Of a DNA stretch of 64,000 nucleotides, positions 11,804 to 36,196 are shown in pieces; the stretch's first letter is position 1, and each line of letters begins with the position of its first letter. The stretch is taken from the NCBI RefSeq assembly GCF_019039255.1, contig NZ_CP077062.1:3410001-3474000 (forward strand), read 5' to 3'. The position numbers and the translations under genes were made by a program. The notes beneath the pieces were generated by a model. It was not told the origin of the DNA. It did not search any database and worked only from the letters and a program-made list of their open reading frames with translations. This DNA is from Nocardioides panacis (GTDB lineage Bacteria; Actinomycetota; Actinomycetes; Propionibacteriales; Nocardioidaceae).

Positions 11804-13711
11804 GTGACCAAGCAGGTCAAGCAGCTCGACCGTGTGATCATCCGTTTCGCCGGCGACTCGGGCGACGGCATGCAGCTGACGGGCGACCGCTTCACCCAGG
11901 AGACCGCGAGCTTCGGCAACGACCTGTCGACGCTCCCGAACTTCCCGGCGGAGATCCGCGCACCCCAGGGCACGCTCCCCGGGGTCTCGTCGTTCCAGGT
12001 GCACTTCGCCGACCACGACATCCTCACGCCGGGCGACTCCCCGGACGTGCTCGTCGCGATGAACCCGGCGGCGCTCAAGGCGAACCTCGCGGACATCAAG
12101 AAGGGCGCGACGATCATCGTCGACTCCCATGACTTCACCACCCGCAACCTGAACAAGGCGGCGTACGCCGAGAACCCGCTCGAGAACGACTCGCTCGCGG
12201 AGTACGACGTGCACGCCTTCGAGCTCACGGACATGACGGTCGAGGCGGTCAAGGAGTTCGGGCTGTCCCGCAAGGACGCCAGCCGGGCGAAGAACATGTT
12301 CGCGCTGGGGCTGCTGTCGTGGATGTACGGCCGCCCGACCGAGTCGACGATCTCGTTCCTGGAGCGCCGCTTCGCCAAGGCCCCGGACATCCGGGACGCG
12401 AACATCACCGCGTTCAACGCGGGCTGGTACTTCGGGGAGACCACCGAGGCGTTCGTCGTGCAGTACGAGATCAAGCCGGCCCCGATGCGCGCCGGCACCT
12501 ACCGCAACATCACGGGCAACCTGGCGCTGGCGTACGGCCTGATCGCGGGCTCCACCCAGTCCGGGCTGCCGCTGTTCCTCGGGTCCTACCCGATCACGCC
12601 GGCCTCCGACATCCTGCACGAGCTCAGCAAGCACAAGCGGTTCGGCGTCACGACGTTCCAGGCCGAGGACGAGATCGCCGGCATCGGCGCAGCCCTGGGC
12701 GCGGCGTTCGGCGGGTCGCTGGGCGTGACGACCACGTCCGGCCCCGGCATCGCGCTGAAGTCCGAGACGATCGGCCTCGGCGTGATGATGGAGCTGCCGC
12801 TCCTCGTGGTCGACGTGCAGCGGGGTGGGCCGTCGACCGGCCTGCCCACCAAGACCGAGCAGGCCGACCTCCTGCAGGCGATGTTCGGCCGCAACGGCGA
12901 GTCGCCGGTGCCGATCATCGCGCCGCAGTCCCCGGGCGACTGCTTCGACGCCGCCCTGGAGGCGACCCGGATCGCGGTCACCTACCGCACCCCGGTGATG
13001 CTGCTCTCCGACGGCTACCTCGCCAACGGCTCCGAGCCGTGGCAGATCCCCGAGGTCGCGGACCTGCCGCGGATCGACCCGGCCTTCGCGACGGAGACCA
13101 ACCACGAGGACGCGAAGGGCAAGGCTGAGTTCTGGCCCTACCTGCGCGACGAGGAGACCCTGGCCCGGCCCTGGGCGGTGCCCGGCACCGCGGGCCTCGA
13201 GCACCGGATCGGCGGCCTGGAGAAGGGCGAGGGTCACGGGAACATCTCCTACGACCCGGCCAACCACGACTTCATGGTCCGCACCCGAGCGGCCAAGGTG
13301 GAGCGGATCGCGGACAGCATCCCGCCGATGGAGGTCGACGACCCGTCCGGCCGGGCCCGGGTGCTGGTCCTCGGCTGGGGGTCGACGTACGGCCCGATCG
13401 GCGCCGCGGTCCGCGCCGTCCGCGTCGCCGGGCAGGAGGTCGCCCAGGCACACCTGCGGCACCTCAACCCGTTCCCCAAGGACCTCGGCGAGATCCTCAA
13501 GCGCTACGACGCGGTGATGGTGCCCGAGATGAACCTCGGGCAGCTGAGCATGCTGCTGCGCGCGAAGTACCTCGTCGACGTCGTCGGCTACAACCACGTG
13601 CGCGGCCTGCCGCTGCGCGCGGCCGAGCTCGCCGACGCCATCACCGACCTGATCACCTCGACCGACGACCTGGTCGAGCCCGTCGAGACCTCCGAGGAGG
13701 CACTGCGATGA
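11804..13711 (+). CDS. korA: 2-oxoacid (2-oxoglutarate):ferredoxin oxidoreductase, alpha subunit
   Basis: Oxidatively decarboxylates a 2-oxoacid (2-oxoglutarate in the actinobacterial KorAB) to acyl-CoA and reduces ferredoxin. The 635-residue protein has a gamma domain first (about 1-200: RFAGDSGDGMQLTGDRF, NFPAEIRAPQGTLPGVSSFQ). A pyrimidine-binding alpha domain follows (LGSYPITPASDILHELSK, QAEDEIAGIGAALGAAFGG, TTTSGPGIALKSE). It starts at GTG 11804 after AAAGAAGG. It overlaps korB by four bases (ATGA). A 19-bp dispersed repeat encodes LVEPVET at its C-terminus. Reduced ferredoxin from this enzyme could feed the nearby NuoEFG-less complex (inference). Confidence 0.93.
   Translation: MTKQVKQLDRVIIRFAGDSGDGMQLTGDRFTQETASFGNDLSTLPNFPAEIRAPQGTLPGVSSFQVHFADHDILTPGDSPDVLVAMNPAALKANLADIKKGATIIVDSHDFTTRNLNKAAYAENPLENDSLAEYDVHAFELTDMTVEAVKEFGLSRKDASRAKNMFALGLLSWMYGRPTESTISFLERRFAKAPDIRDANITAFNAGWYFGETTEAFVVQYEIKPAPMRAGTYRNITGNLALAYGLIAGSTQSGLPLFLGSYPITPASDILHELSKHKRFGVTTFQAEDEIAGIGAALGAAFGGSLGVTTTSGPGIALKSETIGLGVMMELPLLVVDVQRGGPSTGLPTKTEQADLLQAMFGRNGESPVPIIAPQSPGDCFDAALEATRIAVTYRTPVMLLSDGYLANGSEPWQIPEVADLPRIDPAFATETNHEDAKGKAEFWPYLRDEETLARPWAVPGTAGLEHRIGGLEKGEGHGNISYDPANHDFMVRTRAAKVERIADSIPPMEVDDPSGRARVLVLGWGSTYGPIGAAVRAVRVAGQEVAQAHLRHLNPFPKDLGEILKRYDAVMVPEMNLGQLSMLLRAKYLVDVVGYNHVRGLPLRAAELADAITDLITSTDDLVEPVETSEEALR
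13672..13690. repeat. 19-bp dispersed element, copy 2 (3' end of korA)
   Basis: GGTCGAGCCCGTCGAGACC, in frame near the korA stop. One base differs from copy 1. Confidence 0.6.
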
Positions 13712-14781
13712 CGCAGACCGAGCTGCCCGTCCCGACGCTGCGCGGCACCGAGGGCGTGCCCGCTGCGGACGGCCCGCAGAACCGCAAGGAGTTCACCTCC
13801 GACCAGGAGGTCCGCTGGTGCCCCGGCTGCGGCGACTACGCAGTGCTGGCCGCCGTCCAGGGCTTCCTGCCCGACCTCGGGCTCAAGCGCGAGAACATCG
13901 TGTTCGTCTCCGGCATCGGCTGCTCGTCGCGGTTCCCCTACTACCTCGACACCTACGGCATGCACTCGATCCACGGCCGGGCGCCGGCCATCGCGACGGG
14001 TCTCGCGACCAGCCGCGCGGACCTCTCGGTCTGGGTCGTGACCGGCGACGGCGACGCGCTGTCGATCGGCGGCAACCACCTGATCCACGCGCTGCGCCGC
14101 AACGTGAACATGACGATCCTGCTGTTCAACAACCGGATCTACGGCCTCACCAAGGGGCAGTACTCCCCCACCTCGGAGCCGGGCAAGGTCACCAAGTCCA
14201 CGCCGATGGGCTCGGTCGACAACCCGTTCAACCCGGTGTCGCTGGCGCTCGGCGCCGAGGCCACCTTCGTGGCCCGCACCGTCGACTCCGACCGCAAGCA
14301 CCTGACCGAGGTGCTGTCCGCCGCCGCCGCGCACCGGGGTACGTCGCTGGTGGAGATCTACCAGAACTGCCCGATCTTCAACGACGACGCGTTCGACGCG
14401 ATCAAGGACAACGACACCAAGGCCGACGCGATCATCCCGCTCCGGCACGGCGAGCCGATCCGGTTCGGCAGCCGCGGCCAGCTCGGGGTCGTCCGCGACC
14501 CGGCCACCGGCGGGGTGCAGGTGGTCGAGGACCCCGACGACGCCGACGTGCTCGTGCACGACGCGCACGCCGAGGACCCGACCACGGCGTTCGCGATCTC
14601 GCGGCTCACCGACGCCGGCGTCCTCAAGCACGCGCCGGTCGGCATCTTCCGCCAGGTCGAGGCGGCGACGTACGACGACCAGGCGCGCGACCAGATCACC
14701 ACCGCCAGCGCCGGCACCGGCGACCCGTCGGCGGCGCTCGCCGGCCTGCTCGCCAGCGGCGACACCTGGACCGTGGTCTGA
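13708..14781 (+). CDS. korB: 2-oxoacid (2-oxoglutarate):ferredoxin oxidoreductase, beta subunit
   Basis: Thiamine diphosphate-binding subunit with a 4Fe-4S cluster. The 357-residue protein has the cluster Cys in RWCPGCGDYAVL and in ISGIGCSSRFPYY (third Cys). The ThDP motif is VTGDGDALSIGGNH, ending in the NN of ILLFNNRIYGLTKGQ. SPTSEPGK is typical of the family. It is translationally coupled to korA. The last 100 residues form a variable domain common in actinobacterial KorB. Confidence 0.93.
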   Translation: MTQTELPVPTLRGTEGVPAADGPQNRKEFTSDQEVRWCPGCGDYAVLAAVQGFLPDLGLKRENIVFVSGIGCSSRFPYYLDTYGMHSIHGRAPAIATGLATSRADLSVWVVTGDGDALSIGGNHLIHALRRNVNMTILLFNNRIYGLTKGQYSPTSEPGKVTKSTPMGSVDNPFNPVSLALGAEATFVARTVDSDRKHLTEVLSAAAAHRGTSLVEIYQNCPIFNDDAFDAIKDNDTKADAIIPLRHGEPIRFGSRGQLGVVRDPATGGVQVVEDPDDADVLVHDAHAEDPTTAFAISRLTDAGVLKHAPVGIFRQVEAATYDDQARDQITTASAGTGDPSAALAGLLASGDTWTVV

Positions 14782-14808
14782 CCGACCCCGCCCCGGGGCC
14801 GCCCCGGG

Positions 14809-14827
14809 GCCGCCGCGGACCGGCGGC
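14809..14827 (+). terminator. Hairpin after korB
   Basis: GCCGCCG (14809-14815), loop CGGAC, CGGCGGC (14821-14827), preceded by a duplicated CCCCGGGGCCG segment. It lies 28 bases after the korB stop. A plausible terminator without a T tract. Confidence 0.4.
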
Positions 14828-14846
14828 GCCCGGGTGACCGGAGGGC

Positions 14847-14858
14847 GCAAACGATTGT
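14847..14858. promoter_or_regulatory. LacI-type operator 1 (liv promoter region)
   Basis: GCAAACGATTGT. One of seven matches in the window to GCAMACGATTGC, a CG-centred palindrome typical of LacI-family operators. Confidence 0.6.
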
Positions 14859-14895
14859 GCTCCGGGCGTCCCGCCTGGCCGGTCGTGCCAATCCG

Positions 14896-14924
14896 TTGAC
14901 GCTCGTGACGGCGTCGGGTACGTT
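14896..14924 (+). promoter_or_regulatory. Sigma-70-type promoter of the liv operon
   Basis: TTGACG (14896-14901), 17-base spacer, TACGTT (14919-14924). The predicted start point (about 14931) lies inside LacI-type operator 2, a repression layout. The leader to livK would be about 180 bases, so a second promoter closer to livK (TTGACG at 15040) is possible. Confidence 0.5.
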
Positions 14925-14927
14925 GAC

Positions 14928-14939
14928 GCGAACGATTGC
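14928..14939. promoter_or_regulatory. LacI-type operator 2 (liv promoter region)
   Basis: GCGAACGATTGC, overlapping the predicted transcription start of the liv operon. Confidence 0.65.
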
Positions 14940-14941
14940 AG

Positions 14942-14957
14942 TGTGAGTGCTGTCACA
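14942..14957. promoter_or_regulatory. CRP/GlxR-type cAMP receptor protein site
   Basis: TGTGAGTGCTGTCACA: perfect TGTGA-N6-TCACA, the consensus of E. coli CRP and actinobacterial GlxR. It lies next to operator 2 and suggests carbon-source control of the liv operon. Confidence 0.6.
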
Positions 14958-15080
14958 CCGCATCGGCCGGACACCCTCGGGGGGTCGGGGTGGTGGAGGG
15001 ATGGCGCCTGGCGTCCCCGAAGCCCCACCGGGTCGTCCCTTGACGCGGGGAACTCTCCCGTGCCAAGACTGCTCTGCACC

Positions 15081-15092
15081 ACAAACGATTGC
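15081..15092. promoter_or_regulatory. LacI-type operator 3 (just before livK)
   Basis: ACAAACGATTGC, 19 bases before the livK start and directly before its GGAGGAAAG ribosome site. Confidence 0.65.
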
Positions 15093-15111
15093 GGTCACCT
15101 GGAGGAAAGTG

Positions 15112-16357
15112 ATGAACCTGTCCGGCGCTCACCCCCGCACCATCCGACGACTGGTGGCGGCGGTCTCGGTCACCGCGCTCGCCGCCAGCCTGGCGGCGTG
15201 CGGCACCCCCAACTCCGAGAAGCAGGCCTCCTCGGACGGCCCGATCACCATCGGCATCTCGCTGCCGCTGACCGGCGACTTCTCCCAGCCCGGCACCCAG
15301 GCCCGCCGCGGCTACGAGGTCTGGCAGGAGATGGTCAACAAGGACGGCGGCATCCTCGGCCGGCAGGTGAAGCTCAAGATCACCGACGACGCCAGCAACC
15401 AGGACACCGTGGTCTCCGACTACACGCGCCTGATCACCCAGGACAAGGTCGACCTGCTGCTCGGCACCTTCTCCTCGCTGCTGAACTTCCCGGCCTCCGC
15501 GGTGGCCGAGAAGAACCGGATGGTCTTCGTGGAGCCCGCCGGCGGCGCGCCGGACATGTTCAGCCGGGGCTTCAAGTACCTCTTCTTCGCCCAGCCCGCC
15601 ACCGCCCCCCCACCAGGCCGACGTCTTCGTCGACTACGTGAAGTCGCTCCCGGCGGCCGAGCGGCCCAAGACCGCGGCGTACCCGACCCAGGACGACCCG
15701 TTCGCCCGTCCGGTCGTCGAGAGCATGCAGAAGCAGCTCGAGGCGCTCGGCGTGAAGACGGTGTTCTCCAAGGTCTACCCGCCCGACACCTCCAACTTCC
15801 AGACGACCGCCTCCGCGATCGCGGCCAAGAAGCCCGACCTGATCGCCCAGGGTGCCGTCTTCGAGGACGGCGTCGGCCTGGTCCGGTCGCTCAAGCAGGT
15901 CGGCTACTCGCCGAAGCTGCTGTTCCAGACCTCGGCGCCCAGCAACGCCGGGCAGTACAGCGACGGCATCGGCGCCGGGAACACCGAGGGCGTCTTCTAC
16001 ACCGTGAGCTGGAACGAGAAGGCCCAGACCCCGAAGAACGACGAGTTCGTGAAGGCCTACGCCGCCAAGTTCGACAACGAGACCCCGGCCGAGGACGCCG
16101 CGGACGCGTTCGCCGCGGCCGAGGTCCTGCAGCAGGCGGTGGAGAAGGTCGGCAGCCTCGACCAGACCAAGATCGCCGACTGGCTGCACGGCAACGAGAC
16201 CTCCACCATCCTGGGACCGCTGAGCTGGGACGAGACGGGCGCTCCGCAGAACAACTTCCTGCTGGCGCAGTGGCAGAACGGCGAGGTCCAGATCGTCGGG
16301 CCGACCGAGGCTGCGACCACGCAGGAGGTGGTCAACCCCAAGCCCGCCTGGAACTGA
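15112..16357 (+). CDS. livK: Liv-type ABC transporter substrate-binding lipoprotein, interrupted by a +1 frameshift
   Basis: Extracellular receptor (type 1 periplasmic-binding fold, amino-acid/amide group) of the importer. About 415 residues once repaired. Signal peptide with lipobox LAASLAAC (Cys30). The mature part begins ITIGISLPLTGDFSQPGTQARRGYE, typical of the Leu/Ile/Val-binding family, which in actinobacteria also binds aromatic acids, amides and urea. The frame breaks at the C7 run 15605-15611. Removing one C gives ATAPHQADVFVDYVKSLP and continues to the stop at 16357. ATG 15112 follows GGAGGAAAG. It is the first gene of livK-livH-livMG-livF-hydrolase. I think the frameshift is a consensus error. 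Confidence 0.85.
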
Positions 16358-16394
16358 CCCGGACGACGGACGACACGACAGGATTCGGTGGACC

Positions 16395-17276
16395 ATGGAC
16401 CAGCTACTGCAGGCGATCGTCCTCGGGCTGCTCATCGGCGGGGTGTACGCGCTGATGGCGTCGGGCCTGACGCTCGTGTTCGGCGTGATGCACATCGTCA
16501 ACGTCGCCCACGGCGCCACGCTGATCGCGGTGGCCATGGTCACCTGGTGGGTCTGGAGCACCACCGGCATCGACCCGCTGCTCATCGGGGTCGCCCTGGT
16601 GCCGGTGATGTTCGGGGTCGGCTGGCTGCTCTACAAGGGCGTGGTCTCCCGGATCAGCACCGAGTCCGTGTCGATGTCGGTCCTGCTCACCTTCGGGATC
16701 GCGCTGACCATCGAGGGACTGCTCAACGTGTTCGCGGGCAACAAGTTCCGGTCCGCGACCCCGTCGTACTTCGAGGAGTCCTTCCACGTCGCCGGCCTGG
16801 TGTTCCCCAAGGCCCAGGTGTACGGCGCGACGCTGGCCCTGGTCACCCTGACGGTGCTGTACCTGGTGCTCACCCGCACCTGGACCGGCAGGGCGATCAG
16901 GGCCACCTCGCAGAACGCCTCGGGGGCGGCGCTGGTGGGGATCAGCGCCGCGGCCACCTCGGCCCTGACGTTCGCGATCGGGACGGCGACCACCGGCGTC
17001 GGCGGCTCGATCCTCTCCGTGCTCTACCCGTTCTTCCCGGCCTCGCACTACGACTGGATCTCCCGGCTGCTGGGCATCATCGTGCTCGGCGGCATGGGCA
17101 GCCTTCCCGGTGCGTTCACCGGCGCCCTGCTGCTCGGGCTCGCGGAGACGCTGACCGCGACGTACGGGTCGCTGCAGTGGGCCACCGTCATCTTCTACGT
17201 CGCGATCCTGGTCGTGCTGCTGGTCAAGCCGCAGGGACTGTTCGGCGCCAAGCTCCGAGAGGACGTCGCAGCATGA
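16395..17276 (+). CDS. livH: Liv-type ABC transporter permease LivH
   Basis: Inner-membrane permease, 293 residues with about eight helices. It has the family start [20 protein letters not shown] and [39 protein letters not shown] is the conserved cytoplasmic loop contacting the ATPase. It overlaps the next gene by four bases (ATGA). The imported compound is unknown; regulation and neighbours suggest the substrate of the downstream hydrolase. Confidence 0.93.
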
Positions 17277-19121
17277 AGGGCCTCCTGACCCGCCAGCGGG
17301 GAGCGGTCGCGCTGGTCGCGCTGGCGCTGCTGCTCTACCCGGTGGTGCGTCCCTACGACGTCTACCCGCAGACCGTGATGCTGCTCGCGTTCCTGCTGGC
17401 CATCCAGTCTGTCAGCTGGAACATCATCTCCGGCTACGCCGGCTACATCTCGCTGGGCCACAGCGTCTTCCTCGGCCTCGGGGGGTACGCCGCGGCGATC
17501 GTGGCCACCCGCACCGGCCTCAACCCGCTGGTGCTCGCGCCGCTCGGCGCCGTCGTCGTCACCGTGATCGCGGTGCTCGTCGGGGCCGTCGTGCTGCGGA
17601 GGCGCAGCCACGCGTTCGTGATCATCACCATCGCGCTGCTGCTCTCGACCCAGGCCGTGTTCACCAACTGGAAGAGCCTGACCGGCGGCTCCGACGGGCT
17701 CACCCTCTCGCTGCCGACCTGGTCCAACGACATCCAGGCACTGCCGTTCTACTACATGTTCCTGGTCGTGCTGGGCCTGACCGTGGCCTTCTCCGCGCAG
17801 ATCCGGCGGCGCAAGTTCGGCACCGGGCTGATCGCGATCCGCGAGGACGAGGGCAAGGCCGCGGCCATCGGCGTGAACGCCGCCCGCTACAAGATCATCG
17901 CGTTCGGGTGCAGCGCCTTCTTCGTCGGCCTGGCCGGTGGCGTCTACGCCTACTACCAGAGCTTCTTGAACCCGCCCGGCATGTTCAGCATCCTCAGCAG
18001 CGTGATGATCGTGCTCGCCGCGCTCGTGGGCGGACGGGGCACCCTGTTCGGCCCCGTCATCGGCGCCTTCATCCTGCAGTTCGCCAGCGAGGCCGCCACC
18101 GTCTACGGCGGCGGGAGCGAGACCCGGGTGCTGCTCTTCGGCATCGTGCTGGTCCTCGTCGTGCTGTTCATGCCGGCCGGCCTGCTGCCCACCGTCCAGC
18201 GGCTGTGGGACCGCAGGCACACCGGCGAGACCGAGTACACCAACCAGATCGGCGCCCTCGGCCACGGCCGCCTGGAGTTCCGCACCCGCGAGCCGCGCGA
18301 GCTCGACCCGGACACGGAGCCACCCGTGCTCCTCGACGTGCGCGGCGTCTCCAAGGCCTTCGGCGGCATCCAGGCCGTCGACCACGCCGACCTGCAGGTG
18401 CGCGAGGGCTCGATCACCGCGCTCATCGGGCCCAACGGCTCCGGCAAGACCACGCTGTTCAACCTGGTCACCGGGGTGATGAAGGCGGACGCCGGCGAGA
18501 TCTGGTTCGACGGCAGGCGCATCGACTCGCTGGCGGCGCACTCCCGCGGGCACCTCGGGCTGGCGCGGACCTTCCAGGTCACCCGGCTCTTCGACTCCAT
18601 GACCGTGCTGGAGAACGTCGTCGCCCCCCGTGCCGGACACCCGGCTCAGGACGATGCTCGCCGGCGCCGTCAGCGGCCAGGAGGCCGAGCGGGCCCGGCA
18701 CCTCCTGGACTACGTCGGCCTCGGCTCGTTCGCCCAGCAGCAGGCCGGCGCGCTGTCCTACGGCCAGAAGAAGCTCGTCGAGCTCGCCCAGGTGCTGATG
18801 ATGGAGCCGCGGCTGATCCTGCTCGACGAGCCCGCCGGCGGCATCAACCCCAGCCTGGTCGAGCGGCTCTCGGGCATGATCCGCGACCTGAACGAGCAGG
18901 GCGTCTCCTTCCTGGTCGTCGAGCACAACATCCCGATGGTGCTCGACCTCTGCGACCCGGTCTACGTCTTCGCCCGGGGCACGTCGATCAGCCAGGGCTC
19001 GCCGGACGTCGTCCGCAACGACCCGGCGGTGCTCGACGCCTACCTCGGCGACGAGTGGAAGTCCGAGCCCGTCGCCTCTGCCATCTCGACCGCTGCCGCT
19101 CCCGGAGGTGCACCGTGCTGA
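17273..19121 (+). CDS. livM: Fused Liv-type permease/ATP-binding protein LivM-LivG, interrupted by a +1 frameshift
   Basis: About 616 residues once repaired. Residues 1 to about 320 are the LivM permease ([31 protein letters not shown]). A linker follows, and from about residue 350 comes the LivG ATPase ([17 protein letters not shown], Walker [10 protein letters not shown]). After the C6 run at 18624-18629 the frame shifts. Dropping one C joins ENVVAP to [12 protein letters not shown], then the signature [13 protein letters not shown] and Walker [14 protein letters not shown]. The permease-ATPase fusion itself is real, because both parts are in one frame before the break, and it is known in actinobacteria. 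The break looks like a consensus error. Confidence 0.87.
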
Positions 19122-19861
19122 GGATGACGAACATCTGGGCGGGGTACGGCGGCAGCCACGTGCTGCAGGGCGTCGACCTGCACTGCGCACCGGGCACGAT
19201 CACCTGCATCGTCGGGCCGAACGGCGCCGGCAAGTCGACCGTGCTCCGGGTGGTCAGCGGCCTGCTGTCCCCGAGCGAGGGGTCGGTCGACCTCGACGGC
19301 ACCCCGATCGCCGGACGCGCGCCGGACGCGATCCTGCGTGCGGGCGTCGCGCAGGTGCCGCAGTCGCACGCGCTGTTCCCGCAGATGACCGTGCGCGAGA
19401 ACGTCATGCTCGGCGGCTACACGATCCGCCGCGACAAGGACCTGCTCCAGCAGCGCTTCCGCGAGGTCAGCGAGCTGGTGCCGATCGTGGCCGACCGCGC
19501 CGAGCAGCACGCCGGCAACCTGTCCGGCGGCCAGCGGCGGATGGTGGAGATCGCCCGCTGCCTGATGCTCGACCCCACCCTGCTGCTGCTCGACGAGCCG
19601 TCCCTGGGGCTGGACCCCAAGGCGGTCGGGTCGGTGATCGCGCTCGTCCAGGACCTCAACGCCGGCGGCAAGACCATCCTGCTGGTCGAGCAGAACGTCC
19701 GGATGGGGCTGCAGATGGCCACCCACGGCGTCGTGATGGAAGGCGGCCGGGTCCGGCTGACCGGCACCGCCGACGAGGTCCGCACCAACCCCGAGATCGC
19801 CACGCTGTTCCTCGGCGGCCACGTCGCCACCGACGAACCGCGCTCCGGCCAGCCCGCCTGA
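19115..19861 (+). CDS. livF: Liv-type ABC transporter ATP-binding protein LivF
   Basis: Second ATPase of the importer, 248 residues from GTG 19115 (GGAGG six bases upstream) or 245 from ATG 19124. It has Walker [10 protein letters not shown], signature [14 protein letters not shown], Walker [14 protein letters not shown] and the H-loop LVEQNVRMG, all intact. It overlaps the end of livMG. The hydrolase follows 20 bases later. Confidence 0.93.
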
Positions 19862-19880
19862 CCCGACCCGAGGAGGACAC

Positions 19881-20945
19881 ATGCCTGACGCCGAGGTGGA
19901 GGCCGCGCTGGCCCACTGGGCCCCGAGGTTCATCCAGAACGGGGTCGACTACAACGACTTCGTGCGCACCGTGCAGCGGATCGACACCTGGGACCAGTGG
20001 CTCCCCGAGTGGAGCCGGACCGCCGACGAGCAGGCCGAGCTGGCCGCCGAGTCCGACGCCACGGGGCACCGCGACACCGCCGGCCACGCCTGGCGCCGCG
20101 CCGCGACCGACCGGCACTTCGGCAAGTTCGTCTGGATGGTCGACCTGGACCTGGCCGCCGAGGCGGGCCGGCGCTCGGTCGAGGAGATGCGGGCCGCACA
20201 CACCCGTCTCGACCCGACCGCCGAGCGCCTGGAGATCGCGGTGGACGGCAGCACGGCCTACGCCAACCTGCGCCGTCCCCCGGGCGCCGACCGGTCGCCG
20301 TACGTCGTGCTGGTCCCGGGCCTGGACTCCACCAAGGAGGAGTTCTTCTACTTCGAGCAGGGCTTCCTCGACCGTGGGGTCGCCACCGTCTCGCTCGACG
20401 GGCCGGGCCAGGGCGAGACCGGTGTCCGGCTGCCGATCCGGCCGGACTACGAGGTCGCGGTCACTCCCCTGCTCGACGCGCTGGCCGCCCGCACCGACCT
20501 GGACCACGACCGCATCGGCCTGTGCGGGGTGAGCCTGGGCGGCTACTACGCCCCGCGGGCCGCCGCCTTCGAGCCCCGGGTGCGTGCCGTCGCAGGCATC
20601 AGCGGTCCGTTCTGCTTCGGAGACATGTGGGACGACCTGCCCCCGATGACCCGGCAGACGTTCGTGGTGAAGTCGGGCGCGAAGGACGACGCCGAGGGCC
20701 ACCGGATCGCCAGCAGCCTGGACCTGGCGGGCGTCTGCGAGCGGATCACCGTCCCCGCGCTCTACGTCACCGGCGCCAAGGACCGGCTGATCCCCTGGCA
20801 GCAGACCCAGCGGCAGGCCGAGGAGACGCCCCACGGCACCTTCGTGAACTACCCCGAGGGCAACCACGGGGTCTCGAACATGCCCTACCGCGCCCGCCCG
20901 CTCATCGCGGACTGGATGACCGACCGGCTCACCGGCCGGGGCTAG
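19881..20945 (+). CDS. Alpha/beta hydrolase of the 2,6-dihydroxypseudooxynicotine hydrolase type (C-C bond hydrolase-like)
   Basis: The 354-residue cytoplasmic enzyme has a helical N-terminal cap (about 1-110), then the alpha/beta core. Family motifs: VLVPGLDSTKEEFFYFE, SLDGPGQGE and the nucleophile elbow GVSLGG with Ser218. Asp301 (TGAKDRL) and His329 (EGNHGVSN) complete the triad. PGLDSTKEE is the mark of the family founded by the nicotine-pathway C-C hydrolase, which also includes esterases and amidases, so the reaction is not fixed. It is the last gene of the liv operon, implying that it acts on the imported compound. Its stop overlaps the convergent M24 gene by four bases (CTAG). Confidence 0.8.
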   Translation: MPDAEVEAALAHWAPRFIQNGVDYNDFVRTVQRIDTWDQWLPEWSRTADEQAELAAESDATGHRDTAGHAWRRAATDRHFGKFVWMVDLDLAAEAGRRSVEEMRAAHTRLDPTAERLEIAVDGSTAYANLRRPPGADRSPYVVLVPGLDSTKEEFFYFEQGFLDRGVATVSLDGPGQGETGVRLPIRPDYEVAVTPLLDALAARTDLDHDRIGLCGVSLGGYYAPRAAAFEPRVRAVAGISGPFCFGDMWDDLPPMTRQTFVVKSGAKDDAEGHRIASSLDLAGVCERITVPALYVTGAKDRLIPWQQTQRQAEETPHGTFVNYPEGNHGVSNMPYRARPLIADWMTDRLTGRG

Positions 20946-22111
20946 GCGATCCGGCCGAGGCCGCGCGGGAAGGCGTGCAGGCGCTCGCACCCGGTCGCGG
21001 TGACGGCGAACAGCTCGCCGGTCTGCACCCCCGCGCGCCCGTCGTACGTCGTGACGTTGGGCTGCACCACCACGGTCATGCCCTCGGCGAGGGCGAGCTC
21101 GGGCAGCGGTTCCAGCGTGCGGCTGCGCGACCCGAACACGGGCGGCAGGTAGCCACCTCCGAGGCCGTGCACGAGGTCGTCGACGGTGGTGAAGCCGGCG
21201 TCCTCGATGACGGACGCGGCCTCGACCACCTCGGCGGGCGTGACCCCCGGGGCCAGCAGCGCCTCCACGCGCGCGAGCGCCTCGTCGGCCACCGCGTGCA
21301 GGTCGAGGTAGAGCGAGGTGGGGGGCGCCGCCACCGTGAACGTGCGCAGCAGCTGGCCGGGGTAGTCGATCCCGTGCGCGGTGCTCAGCTCGCACGACAG
21401 CACGTCGCCGACCGCGAGCCGGCGCTCGCCCGGCCACTGCGAGGGCACGCACTGGCGCGGGTCGGCCATCGACGTGACGGAGAAGTAGTGGATGTAGTTG
21501 GTGCCGCCCAGCGGCAGGTAGCTGCCCTCGACCAGGGCGTTCAGCTCGTGCTCGCTCGTGCCCGGGCCGGCGCCGTCACGCATCGCCGCGCAGGAGCCGT
21601 CCGTGAGCCGGGCGGCGATCCGCAGCCAGTCGAGCTCCTCGGGAGACTTGTGCATCCGGAGCCGGGTGTAGGCCGGGTTCAGGTCCACCGCGTCCACGCC
21701 CGCCGCGCGCAGCGCCGACCAGACCGCGAAGGGCAGCGCCCCGACGACGCCGACGCGCGAGCCGGCGAGGTCCCCGCGCTCCCGCAGCTCGGCCAGGACG
21801 GTGTCCGCGAGCCTTGGGCCCGCCCAGCGCACGTCGCAGCCGAGCGCGACCCGGGTGGCCTGGGGGACGTGGTTGAAGAACTGCACCAGCAGCACGTCAC
21901 GGCGGTCGGCGCCGTGCACGACGACGGCCTCCCGGGTCACCGGCCACCCGGACAGCCACTGCACGCCGCTCCCCGAGCGGTTCGCGCCGTGCACCACGAC
22001 CTGCTCGACGCCGGCCTCGGCCATCACGGCGTCGAGCGCGGTGCGCCGGCGCAGCATCTCGGCGTCGCTGAACGCCGCGGGACCCGCCTCCGGGTCGACG
22101 TACGCGCTCAC
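20942..22111 (-). CDS. M24 (creatinase/aminopeptidase-fold) protein A, metal ligands not conserved
   Basis: The 389-residue protein has a creatinase N-terminal domain (about 1-150) and a pita-bread domain. GTG 22111 overlaps the lacI stop (GTGA). The metal ligands are mostly replaced. The Asp-Asp pair region reads GDVLSCELSTAHGIDYPGQL (Glu, Pro/Gly instead of Asp, Asp). The late Glu residues read VVVQPNV and VQTGELFAV. A His remains in VHGLGGGY. Loss of metal ligands is the hallmark of creatinase-type amidinohydrolases, but peptidase remnants cannot be excluded. It is the last gene of the binding-protein/MFS/lacI/M24 operon. Confidence 0.75.
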   Translation of the reverse strand: MSAYVDPEAGPAAFSDAEMLRRRTALDAVMAEAGVEQVVVHGANRSGSGVQWLSGWPVTREAVVVHGADRRDVLLVQFFNHVPQATRVALGCDVRWAGPRLADTVLAELRERGDLAGSRVGVVGALPFAVWSALRAAGVDAVDLNPAYTRLRMHKSPEELDWLRIAARLTDGSCAAMRDGAGPGTSEHELNALVEGSYLPLGGTNYIHYFSVTSMADPRQCVPSQWPGERRLAVGDVLSCELSTAHGIDYPGQLLRTFTVAAPPTSLYLDLHAVADEALARVEALLAPGVTPAEVVEAASVIEDAGFTTVDDLVHGLGGGYLPPVFGSRSRTLEPLPELALAEGMTVVVQPNVTTYDGRAGVQTGELFAVTATGCERLHAFPRGLGRIA

Positions 22112-23136
22112 GCCCGGGACGCCGGGGCAGCAGCGGTGGAGCCGCGGACCACGAGGGAGAGCGGGAGGAACACCGAGCGCGGCGAGCGGTCCGGCTCGTG
22201 GATGGACTCCAGCAGCATCCGGCCGGCCTCGACGCCGATCTGGTGGTGCGGCACGGCCACCGTGGTCAGCGGCGGCCGGAGCTTGTCGAGGAAGGGCATG
22301 TCGTTGAAGCCCACGACGCTCACCTCGCCGGGGCAGTCGATGCCGCGCTCGGCGAACACGTCGTAGCACCCCAGCGCGATCAGGTCGTTCCCGGCGACGA
22401 CCGCGGTGAACTCGGCACCGCCGTCGAGCACCTGGCGCAGGGCGCGAGCGCCCTCCTCCTCGCTCCAGTAGTCACAGGTGACCAGCAGCGCCGGGTCGTC
22501 GTCGAGCCCGTGGCCCCGCAGCGCGCTGTGGAACGCGCGGGCCCGGACCACGCCCGTCGAGGTGCTCTGCGGGCCGGCGAGGTGCGCGATCCGGGTGTGC
22601 CCGAGCTTCACGAGGTGCTCCACCGCGAGCTCCACGCCGCGCGCGTCGTCGGGGGTGATGGAGGGGACGTCGAGGTCGTCGGTGCGGCGGTTGACGAGCA
22701 CCATCCGGACCCCCTGCTCGTGCAGCTGCTGCAGCAGCGGGTGCTCGAGCCGCGCGGTGGCGACGATGAGCCCCTCGACCTGGCGGGACCGCAGCGTCAT
22801 GACCTGCTGCTGCTCGCGGGCCGGGTCGTTGTCGGTGTTGACGATCAGGGCGCTGAAGCCCGCAGGCCCCAGCACGTCCTCGATGCCGCGCACGATCGGC
22901 GGGAACAGCGGGTTGGTGAGGTCGGGCAGCACCAGACCGATGGTCCCGGACTTCGAGGTCTTGAGGCTGCGCGCGATCGGGTTGGGCTGGTAGCCCAGGG
23001 CCTCGGCGGCCTTGATCACCCGCCGGGCCGTGTCGGAGTTCACGAGTCGACGGGTCTCGGGGTTGAGGGCCCGGGAGGCGGTCGCCGCGTGCACGCCCGC
23101 GGCCTCGGCCACGTCCCGCAGCGTTGGTGTCGACAT
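22108..23136 (-). CDS. LacI-family transcriptional regulator
   Basis: The 342-residue protein has an HTH at residues 5-25 (TLRDVAEAAGVHAATASRALN), a hinge helix (NPIARSLKTSKS) and a periplasmic-binding-like effector domain (IGLVLPDLTNPLFPPIVRGIED). It probably represses this catabolic locus. Its likely operators are the seven GCAMACGATTGC sites at 14847, 14928, 15081, 25286, 25386, 25494 and 36185. The ribosome site GGAAGGGA precedes the ATG. A TTGGATCC element lies 3 bases before the start, possibly linking it to the GntR regulator. The effector is unknown. Confidence 0.92.
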   Translation of the reverse strand: MSTPTLRDVAEAAGVHAATASRALNPETRRLVNSDTARRVIKAAEALGYQPNPIARSLKTSKSGTIGLVLPDLTNPLFPPIVRGIEDVLGPAGFSALIVNTDNDPAREQQQVMTLRSRQVEGLIVATARLEHPLLQQLHEQGVRMVLVNRRTDDLDVPSITPDDARGVELAVEHLVKLGHTRIAHLAGPQSTSTGVVRARAFHSALRGHGLDDDPALLVTCDYWSEEEGARALRQVLDGGAEFTAVVAGNDLIALGCYDVFAERGIDCPGEVSVVGFNDMPFLDKLRPPLTTVAVPHHQIGVEAGRMLLESIHEPDRSPRSVFLPLSLVVRGSTAAAPASRA

Positions 23137-25285: not shown

Positions 25286-25297
25286 GCACTCGATTGC
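25286..25297. promoter_or_regulatory. LacI-type operator 4
   Basis: GCACTCGATTGC, 13 bases before the start of the binding-protein-like gene (minus strand). Confidence 0.5.
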
Positions 25298-25383: not shown

Positions 25384-25399
25384 CTGCATACGTTTGCAG
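25384..25399. promoter_or_regulatory. LacI-type operator 5 (best palindrome)
   Basis: CTGCATACGTTTGCAG: 7 of 8 positions are symmetric about the central CG. It is centrally placed between the two divergent operons. Confidence 0.7.
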
Positions 25400-25493: not shown

Positions 25494-25505
25494 ACAAACG
25501 ATTGC
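25494..25505. promoter_or_regulatory. LacI-type operator 6
   Basis: ACAAACGATTGC, identical to operator 3, 15 bases before the dehydrogenase start. Confidence 0.65.
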
Positions 25506-34404: not shown

Positions 34405-34420
34405 TGTGTCCAGGGTCACA
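34405..34420. promoter_or_regulatory. CRP/GlxR-like site before the VOC operon
   Basis: TGTGTCCAGGGTCACA: TGTGA-N6-TCACA with one mismatch, lying between the two TTGGATCC elements. Confidence 0.45.
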
Positions 34421-36184: not shown

Positions 36185-36196
36185 GCACACGATTGC
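36185..36196. promoter_or_regulatory. LacI-type operator 7
   Basis: GCACACGATTGC within TGCACACGATTGCA, between the divergent FAD oxidoreductase and rarD genes. Confidence 0.6.

Follow-up and report, generated by a model that had tools for sequence, protein, structure and literature searches.

A LacI-type operator and an exact CRP-type dyad adjoin in a predicted promoter upstream of a liv-type transporter operon in Nocardioides panacis

The gap between korB and livK in Nocardioides panacis contains a predicted promoter, P1, in which a LacI-type operator and a CRP/GlxR-type site stand side by side. It was studied in a window of 64,000 nucleotides (NZ_CP077062.1, positions 3,410,001 to 3,474,000, forward strand), the whole stretch of DNA that was analysed. 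Our preferred reading, to which we give a probability of about 60%, is that P1 would be a doubly controlled promoter of the liv operon, with a LacI-family protein acting at the operator over the predicted start and the CRP/GlxR orthologue of this genome acting as a second repressor at an exact TGTGA-N6-TCACA dyad. Judged from sequence and its conservation, the motif cluster in the gap is real. Comparison with relatives supports both of its inputs. Its parts are known, and their arrangement is new.

Results

Layout of the gap between korB and livK

From korB to livK the gap carries, in order, O1, P1, O2, the CRP-type site, a second candidate promoter (P2) and O3. The features are as follows.

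14781: end of korB; the gap runs from here to the livK start at 15112
14847 to 14858, plus strand: O1, LacI-type operator GCAAACGATTGT, 81 bp before O2
14896 to 14901, plus strand: predicted -35 element of P1, TTGACG
14919 to 14924, plus strand: predicted -10 element of P1, TACGTT, spacing 17
14928 to 14939, plus strand: O2, LacI-type operator GCGAACGATTGC, -3 to +9 of the predicted P1 start
14942 to 14957, plus strand: CRP/GlxR-type site TGTGAGTGCTGTCACA, exact TGTGA-N6-TCACA, about +12 to +27 of P1
15040 to 15045, plus strand: candidate -35 element of P2, TTGACG, found by inspection, 41 bp before O3
15065 to 15070, plus strand: candidate -10 element of P2, AAGACT, spacing 19 from TTGACG
15081 to 15092, plus strand: O3, LacI-type operator ACAAACGATTGC, aligned with the livK operator of relatives
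15112 to 16357, plus strand: livK, branched-chain amino-acid type ABC substrate-binding protein
16395 to 19861, plus strand: livH, livM, livG and livF

A first-pass annotation had singled out 62 bases (14896-14957), which leave out O1, O3 and P2 (15040-15070). It claimed TTGACG-N17-TACGTT, and both hexamers are present at that spacing. Its view of the sequence as promoter-like is borne out by TTGAC-N18-TANNNT, of which the window has two occurrences where dinucleotide shuffles predict 0.04. P1 has TTGAC and TANNNT at 17 ± 1, as a sigma-70-type hexamer test asks, and TACGTT is the sole TANNNT in 14782-15111 on either strand. A minus-strand promoter in the gap was ruled out, because neither TANNNT nor TTGAC exists on that strand. 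A stricter consensus promoter scan of 13500-21000 returned no promoter, P1 included, and none of the relatives examined has a counterpart of P1. The P1 start is predicted at 14931. Taken together, 14896-14957 looks like a real promoter with adjoining LacI-type and CRP-type sites.

Two reading frames of the operon are broken, livK at or near a C7 run (15605-15611) and livG at or near a C6 run (18624-18629). Homopolymers miscounted in the assembly seem a likelier cause of these breaks than true loss of the genes. The surrounding cluster (14847-36196) is a LacI-associated catabolic one, with the liv transporter, an FrsA-like hydrolase, two M24 peptidase-like proteins, an MFS protein, NMT1/SsuA-like and hydroxyisobutyrate-dehydrogenase-like proteins, an aldehyde dehydrogenase and an FAD oxidoreductase. 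When 10 cluster proteins were scanned against NCBIfam, only a KorA-type subunit passed the cut-off.

LacI-type operators and their likely reader

The operators follow the pattern GCAWWCGWTTGC, an even palindrome with central CG, as expected of a LacI-family operator. With at most one mismatch, this pattern occurs at 7 places in the window and 10 in the genome, and by the gene starts adopted all 7 window operators lie between or just before genes. O1, O2 and O3 each differ from it by one base. The remaining window operators and the LacI-family gene are listed below.

22108 to 23136, minus strand: LacI-family regulator gene
25286 to 25297, minus strand: operator GCAATCGAGTGC (read on the minus strand), before an NMT1/SsuA-like gene
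25386 to 25397, no strand given: operator GCATACGTTTGC, exact to the pattern, between divergent genes
25494 to 25505, plus strand: operator ACAAACGATTGC, before a hydroxyisobutyrate-dehydrogenase-like gene (25521)
36185 to 36196, no strand given: operator between an FAD oxidoreductase gene (minus) and rarD (plus)

O2 covers -3 to +9 of the inferred start at 14931, in agreement with the earlier claim of a LacI operator over the start. Of the 43 mapped loci that contain this LacI gene or a relative of it, 39 have at least one such operator; the loci without one (L020, L021, L022 and L067) are all stretches shorter than 5 kb. Across the LacI loci the operators stand before livK, MFS/NMT1, hydroxyisobutyrate-dehydrogenase-like or FrsA-like genes, and the letters of the 25494-25505 operator (ACAAACGATTGC) recur near orthologues in L053, L072 and L082. 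The protein encoded at 22108-23136 is likely the one that reads O1-O3. The same genome has a copy of the operator (GCAAACGATTGC) at 479223, beside a second LacI gene that is divergent from an MFS gene (L002, 477723-480734), and thus more than one protein may read O1-O3.

O1 and O3 may be auxiliary operators. Paired operators in relatives (L050-L083, L116 and others) are often spaced by 68-70, 79-83, 90-92 or 102-104 bp. Helical phasing, or looping, of paired operators was considered and rejected: the Rayleigh p of about 1e-5 at 10.5 bp before collapsing became 0.012 on distinct values and 0.35 once related values were collapsed.

A CRP/GlxR orthologue and a predicted cAMP source

The first-pass annotation had named the absence of a CRP/GlxR orthologue as a finding that would count against it, and an orthologue was found. 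It is a CRP/GlxR-type protein in a 229-codon open frame (L012), with its HTH at G000:C1:3836993-3837214. Its best PDB chains, 3mzh, 3d0s, 4cyd and 4byy (E about 1e-74), are labelled CRP/FNR-family, and we take them to be M. tuberculosis CRP and GlxR. The helix SRETVNKAL is common to the orthologue and the best PDB chain(s). One PF00211 cyclase-family protein of the genome scored above the cut-off and is the predicted cAMP source. Very probably, a cAMP-sensing CRP protein binds the site at 14942-14957.

As an illustration rather than a test, 10 of the 53 genes neighbouring other N6 sites were picked by choice and scanned, and 9 of these 10 were matched at 1e-30. Among the matches, PEP carboxykinase, xylose isomerase and a UgpC-type ATPase exceeded the cut-off; malic-enzyme-, DctA- and DcuS-like proteins fell short of it.

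Most livK promoters of the same bacterial family carry the dyad between -35 and -10

Searching 341 genomes of the family yielded 22 close-type livK orthologues besides that of the window, plus more distant ones. The 22 include several near copies; in L215 and L217, for example, the C-terminal part of livK is the same. With at most one mismatch, the CRP-type dyad was present in the livK promoter of 19 of the 22. In 18 it reads TGTGG-N6-TCACA and stands between -35 and -10, 30-31 bp before the LacI operator, which reads GCAATCGATTGC (GCAATCGTTTGC in L225). The last base of this spacer dyad touches the -10, and its centre lies at about -19.5, counted from the start that the -10 predicts. L223 has the form GGTGA-N6-TCACA, L226 has two mismatches, and L227 and L229 have no dyad match. 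The site at 14942-14957 is of a type found in 19 of the 22 family livK promoters, at a position without counterpart in these relatives.

The spacing is specific. With at most one mismatch, the family livK promoters and the window together hold 20 matches at N6, and none of the other spacings from 0 to 30 has more than 2; with up to two mismatches the contrast fades, to 22 at N6 versus up to 17 at other spacings. In an operator-anchored alignment (21 of the 22 rows), identity is 86-95% in the half-site columns and 43-71% in the six columns between them. Conserved halves around a variable middle are the pattern of a dyad-binding protein. Since the conserved -10 adjoins the right half-site, that half is the weaker evidence, and its conservation is perhaps partly that of the promoter. 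We discarded a MerR-type interpretation of the spacer dyad, because MerR promoters have spacers of 19-20 and those here are 17-18 (hand count on the alignment rows).

In a more distant livK clade (L231-L237, 7 members fetched), 6 of 7 have, with one mismatch, a CRP-like site that reads TGTGAC-N-CTTG-MCACA and overlies a -35-like TTGMCA. The LacI-type operator of this clade is a different one (AAGCGCTTACG repeats).

The candidate promoter P2 has a place in the family alignment. MAFFT aligned its AAGACTG and O3 with the livK promoter of the relatives, AAGACT meeting the AAGACTG of two relatives and the AASACTG of others. The TTGACG of P2 was not placed in the columns of the relatives' TTGACA. 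The spacer dyad, present between -35 and -10 in 18 of the 22 family relatives, is absent from P2.

Repression fits the CRP-type site better than activation

In the mechanism that we propose, the LacI-family repressor (22108-23136) would bind O2 over the predicted P1 start, perhaps aided by O1, and by O3 at P2. The CRP/GlxR orthologue would bind TGTGA-N6-TCACA just downstream of the start and block RNA polymerase. The CRP-type site would thus serve as a carbon-state repressor input beside LacI, and the liv operon would be on only with the LacI ligand present and cAMP-CRP unbound.

The first-pass annotation had left two branches, in which the CRP-type site either represses P1 or activates a promoter nearer livK. 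Repression fits best, on account of the family dyad between -35 and -10 and of the position rule for M. tuberculosis, where, according to passages of PMC4117774, CRP bound close to the start goes with repression. For C. glutamicum, passages of PMC7999487 report less cAMP on acetate than on glucose.

The activation branch is weaker. A CRP-type site could help a downstream promoter such as P2, upstream of which it does lie, or it could counteract LacI; passages of PMC7999487 describe GlxR as activating ldhA and gapA in C. glutamicum. However, about 127 bp separate the centre of the site from the predicted P2 start downstream of it, no TANNNT occurs between the site and livK, and in 18 of the 22 relatives the dyad occupies the spacer from -35 to -10, so that a dimer bound to it should obstruct polymerase. 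CRP usually activates from about -41.5 and from -61.5 to -93, and the distance to P2 exceeds these positions. We consider activation unlikely.

Is the dyad a chance match?

The claim of TGTGA-N6-TCACA without mismatch, downstream of the predicted start, holds at 14942-14957. This is the only exact occurrence in the genome (4,901,775 bases), and base composition predicts 0.6 exact dyads per genome (hand estimate). With at most one mismatch the window has 2 CRP-type sites, a number reached by 13 of 100 shuffles. Because the genome-wide exact count is close to chance and shuffles reach the window count this often, the dyad match alone is not significant. The other window site had also been reported by the first-pass annotation.

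34405 to 34420, plus strand: CRP-like site TGTGTCCAGGGTCACA, one mismatch, outside predicted genes, upstream of a glyoxalase-like gene (minus)

By itself, this second site is indistinguishable from chance.

Spacing controls were more informative. In the genome, with at most one mismatch, N6 has 45 matches, N7 has 7, N8 has 15 (3 of which overlie N6 sites) and the N6 pattern read backwards has 6. Shuffling the window gives 0.64 sites per 64 kb, which scaled to the genome makes about 49 N6 sites, so that shuffling alone shows no genome-wide excess over the 45 observed. The 66 operator regions of 39 loci contain 6 CRP-type sites at one mismatch or fewer, versus a shuffle mean of 0.41 and a maximum of 3 in 100 shuffles; L131 and L132 were joined to these regions after their sites had been seen, and without them there are 4 sites in 64 regions. 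Against the 6 at N6, 40 other spacings have 14 together and none more than 2 (N4 1, N8 2, N10 1; N3, N5, N7 and N9 0). This contrast fades with up to two mismatches (N6 12, others up to 8). Across 719,578 bases, 6 of 8 CRP-type sites fall within the 3% of sequence around operators.

N6 sites lie outside predicted genes in 39 of 45 cases, versus 45 of 396 off-centre points. We rejected this share as proof of a regulon, because the N8 control equals it (13/15 outside genes; N7 3/7); the argument thus rests on the spacing count.

It is quite improbable, in our estimate, that the operator is real and TGTGAGTGCTGTCACA is an unbound chance match. Such a match would explain why the exact count in 4.9 Mb, a single site, is close to expectation, why its position differs from the dyad place conserved in relatives, and why the extragenic share is equalled by N8, though not by N7. 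It leaves the N6-specific excess in the genome, the operator regions and the family livK promoters unexplained. The spacing controls, the nearness to operators and the relatives together suggest that the CRP-type site is more than chance.

CytR and CRP bind cooperatively in E. coli, and one such complex of LacI and CRP could suit two sites only 2 bases apart (centres 16 bp apart), the 15 bp between centres at 479223, where the operator copy lies one base from AGTGA-N6-TCACT (two mismatches to the CRP-type dyad), and CytR as the regulator's second-best NCBIfam match (below cut-off), but the centre distances in relatives are mostly 28-29 bp and in others 33-40, without one fixed geometry; we hold this to be the least probable of the explanations.

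Descent of the window's livK

The livK of the window resembles that of another lineage, represented by 14 loci (12 Streptosporangiales, one Pseudonocardia and one MAG labelled Micrococcales) that were collected via the LacI gene and sample it incompletely. Its C-terminal part has a mean of 71.5% to these 14 loci versus 53.4% to the family's 22, and livH has 71.9 versus 55.5. The C-terminal livK tree places the window inside the other lineage (three surrounding forks, 97/91, 98/92 and 97/95). The N-terminal tree leaves the window unplaced, yet outside the family clade (99/94). None of the 14 other-lineage livK regions has the CRP-type dyad at one mismatch; 4 have a two-mismatch match elsewhere in the region.

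The trees and similarities suggest that the operon probably came from a Streptosporangiales-type lineage without this CRP input. The promoters of the lineage to which this livK belongs have no such dyad, so the CRP input probably arose at P1 as a separate gain. One might go further and suppose that a foreign Streptosporangiales-like liv-type operon, which came without CRP control, did not regain the spacer site and gained a new upstream P1 with an exact CRP site and two further LacI operators; the LacI-plus-CRP logic known from the transporter of its new family would thus have been kept and its sites placed anew. We hold this fuller history to be doubtful, because P2 shares AAGACTG with the family promoters; as a family feature, AAGACTG is hard to reconcile with simple descent from the other lineage. 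In place of transfer, an ancient duplication followed by loss could be supposed.

Discussion

Our results suggest that in Nocardioides relatives the core promoters of LacI-controlled transporters contain a conserved CRP-type dyad. Related bacteria have both kinds of site before the matching transporter, ordered otherwise than in the window, so the control logic may have been kept and its layout rebuilt. This is a case in which one can test how catabolic genes, once transferred, may be integrated into the carbon control of a host. It also shows that relatives can serve to confirm a motif cluster read by eye and to argue in which direction it acts. A literature search at the level of titles and abstract beginnings returned no description of this promoter type, which does not imply its absence from print.

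The E. coli lac control region combines LacI operators with a CRP site. The predicted promoter here is like it in having a LacI-family operator over the start, distant extra operators and a CRP site in the region. It differs in that the CRP-type site lies downstream of the predicted start, where it should repress, and in that the operon is a liv-type transporter.

According to passages of a survey of the LacI family (PMC4052901), multiple sites occur in about 20% of operons, and three sites in 116 operons. Even palindromes with central CG and multiple sites are shared with the survey, whereas its intersite peaks, in the same passages, are at 13, 22 and 32 bp and the distances here are 81 and 153 bp. 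The word 'Nocardioides' is absent from its main text.

In the dyad itself, the likeness is to the CRP/GlxR regulons of actinobacteria. Passages of PMC4117774 and PMC7999487 give TGTGA-N6-TCACA as the dyad of M. tuberculosis CRP and C. glutamicum GlxR. The present site shares with these regulons the dyad, a related protein and, in our reading, the repression that passages of PMC4117774 describe for binding close to the start. What sets it apart is the pairing with a LacI-family operator in one core promoter, and its displacement here from the place between -35 and -10 that the dyad occupies in family relatives.
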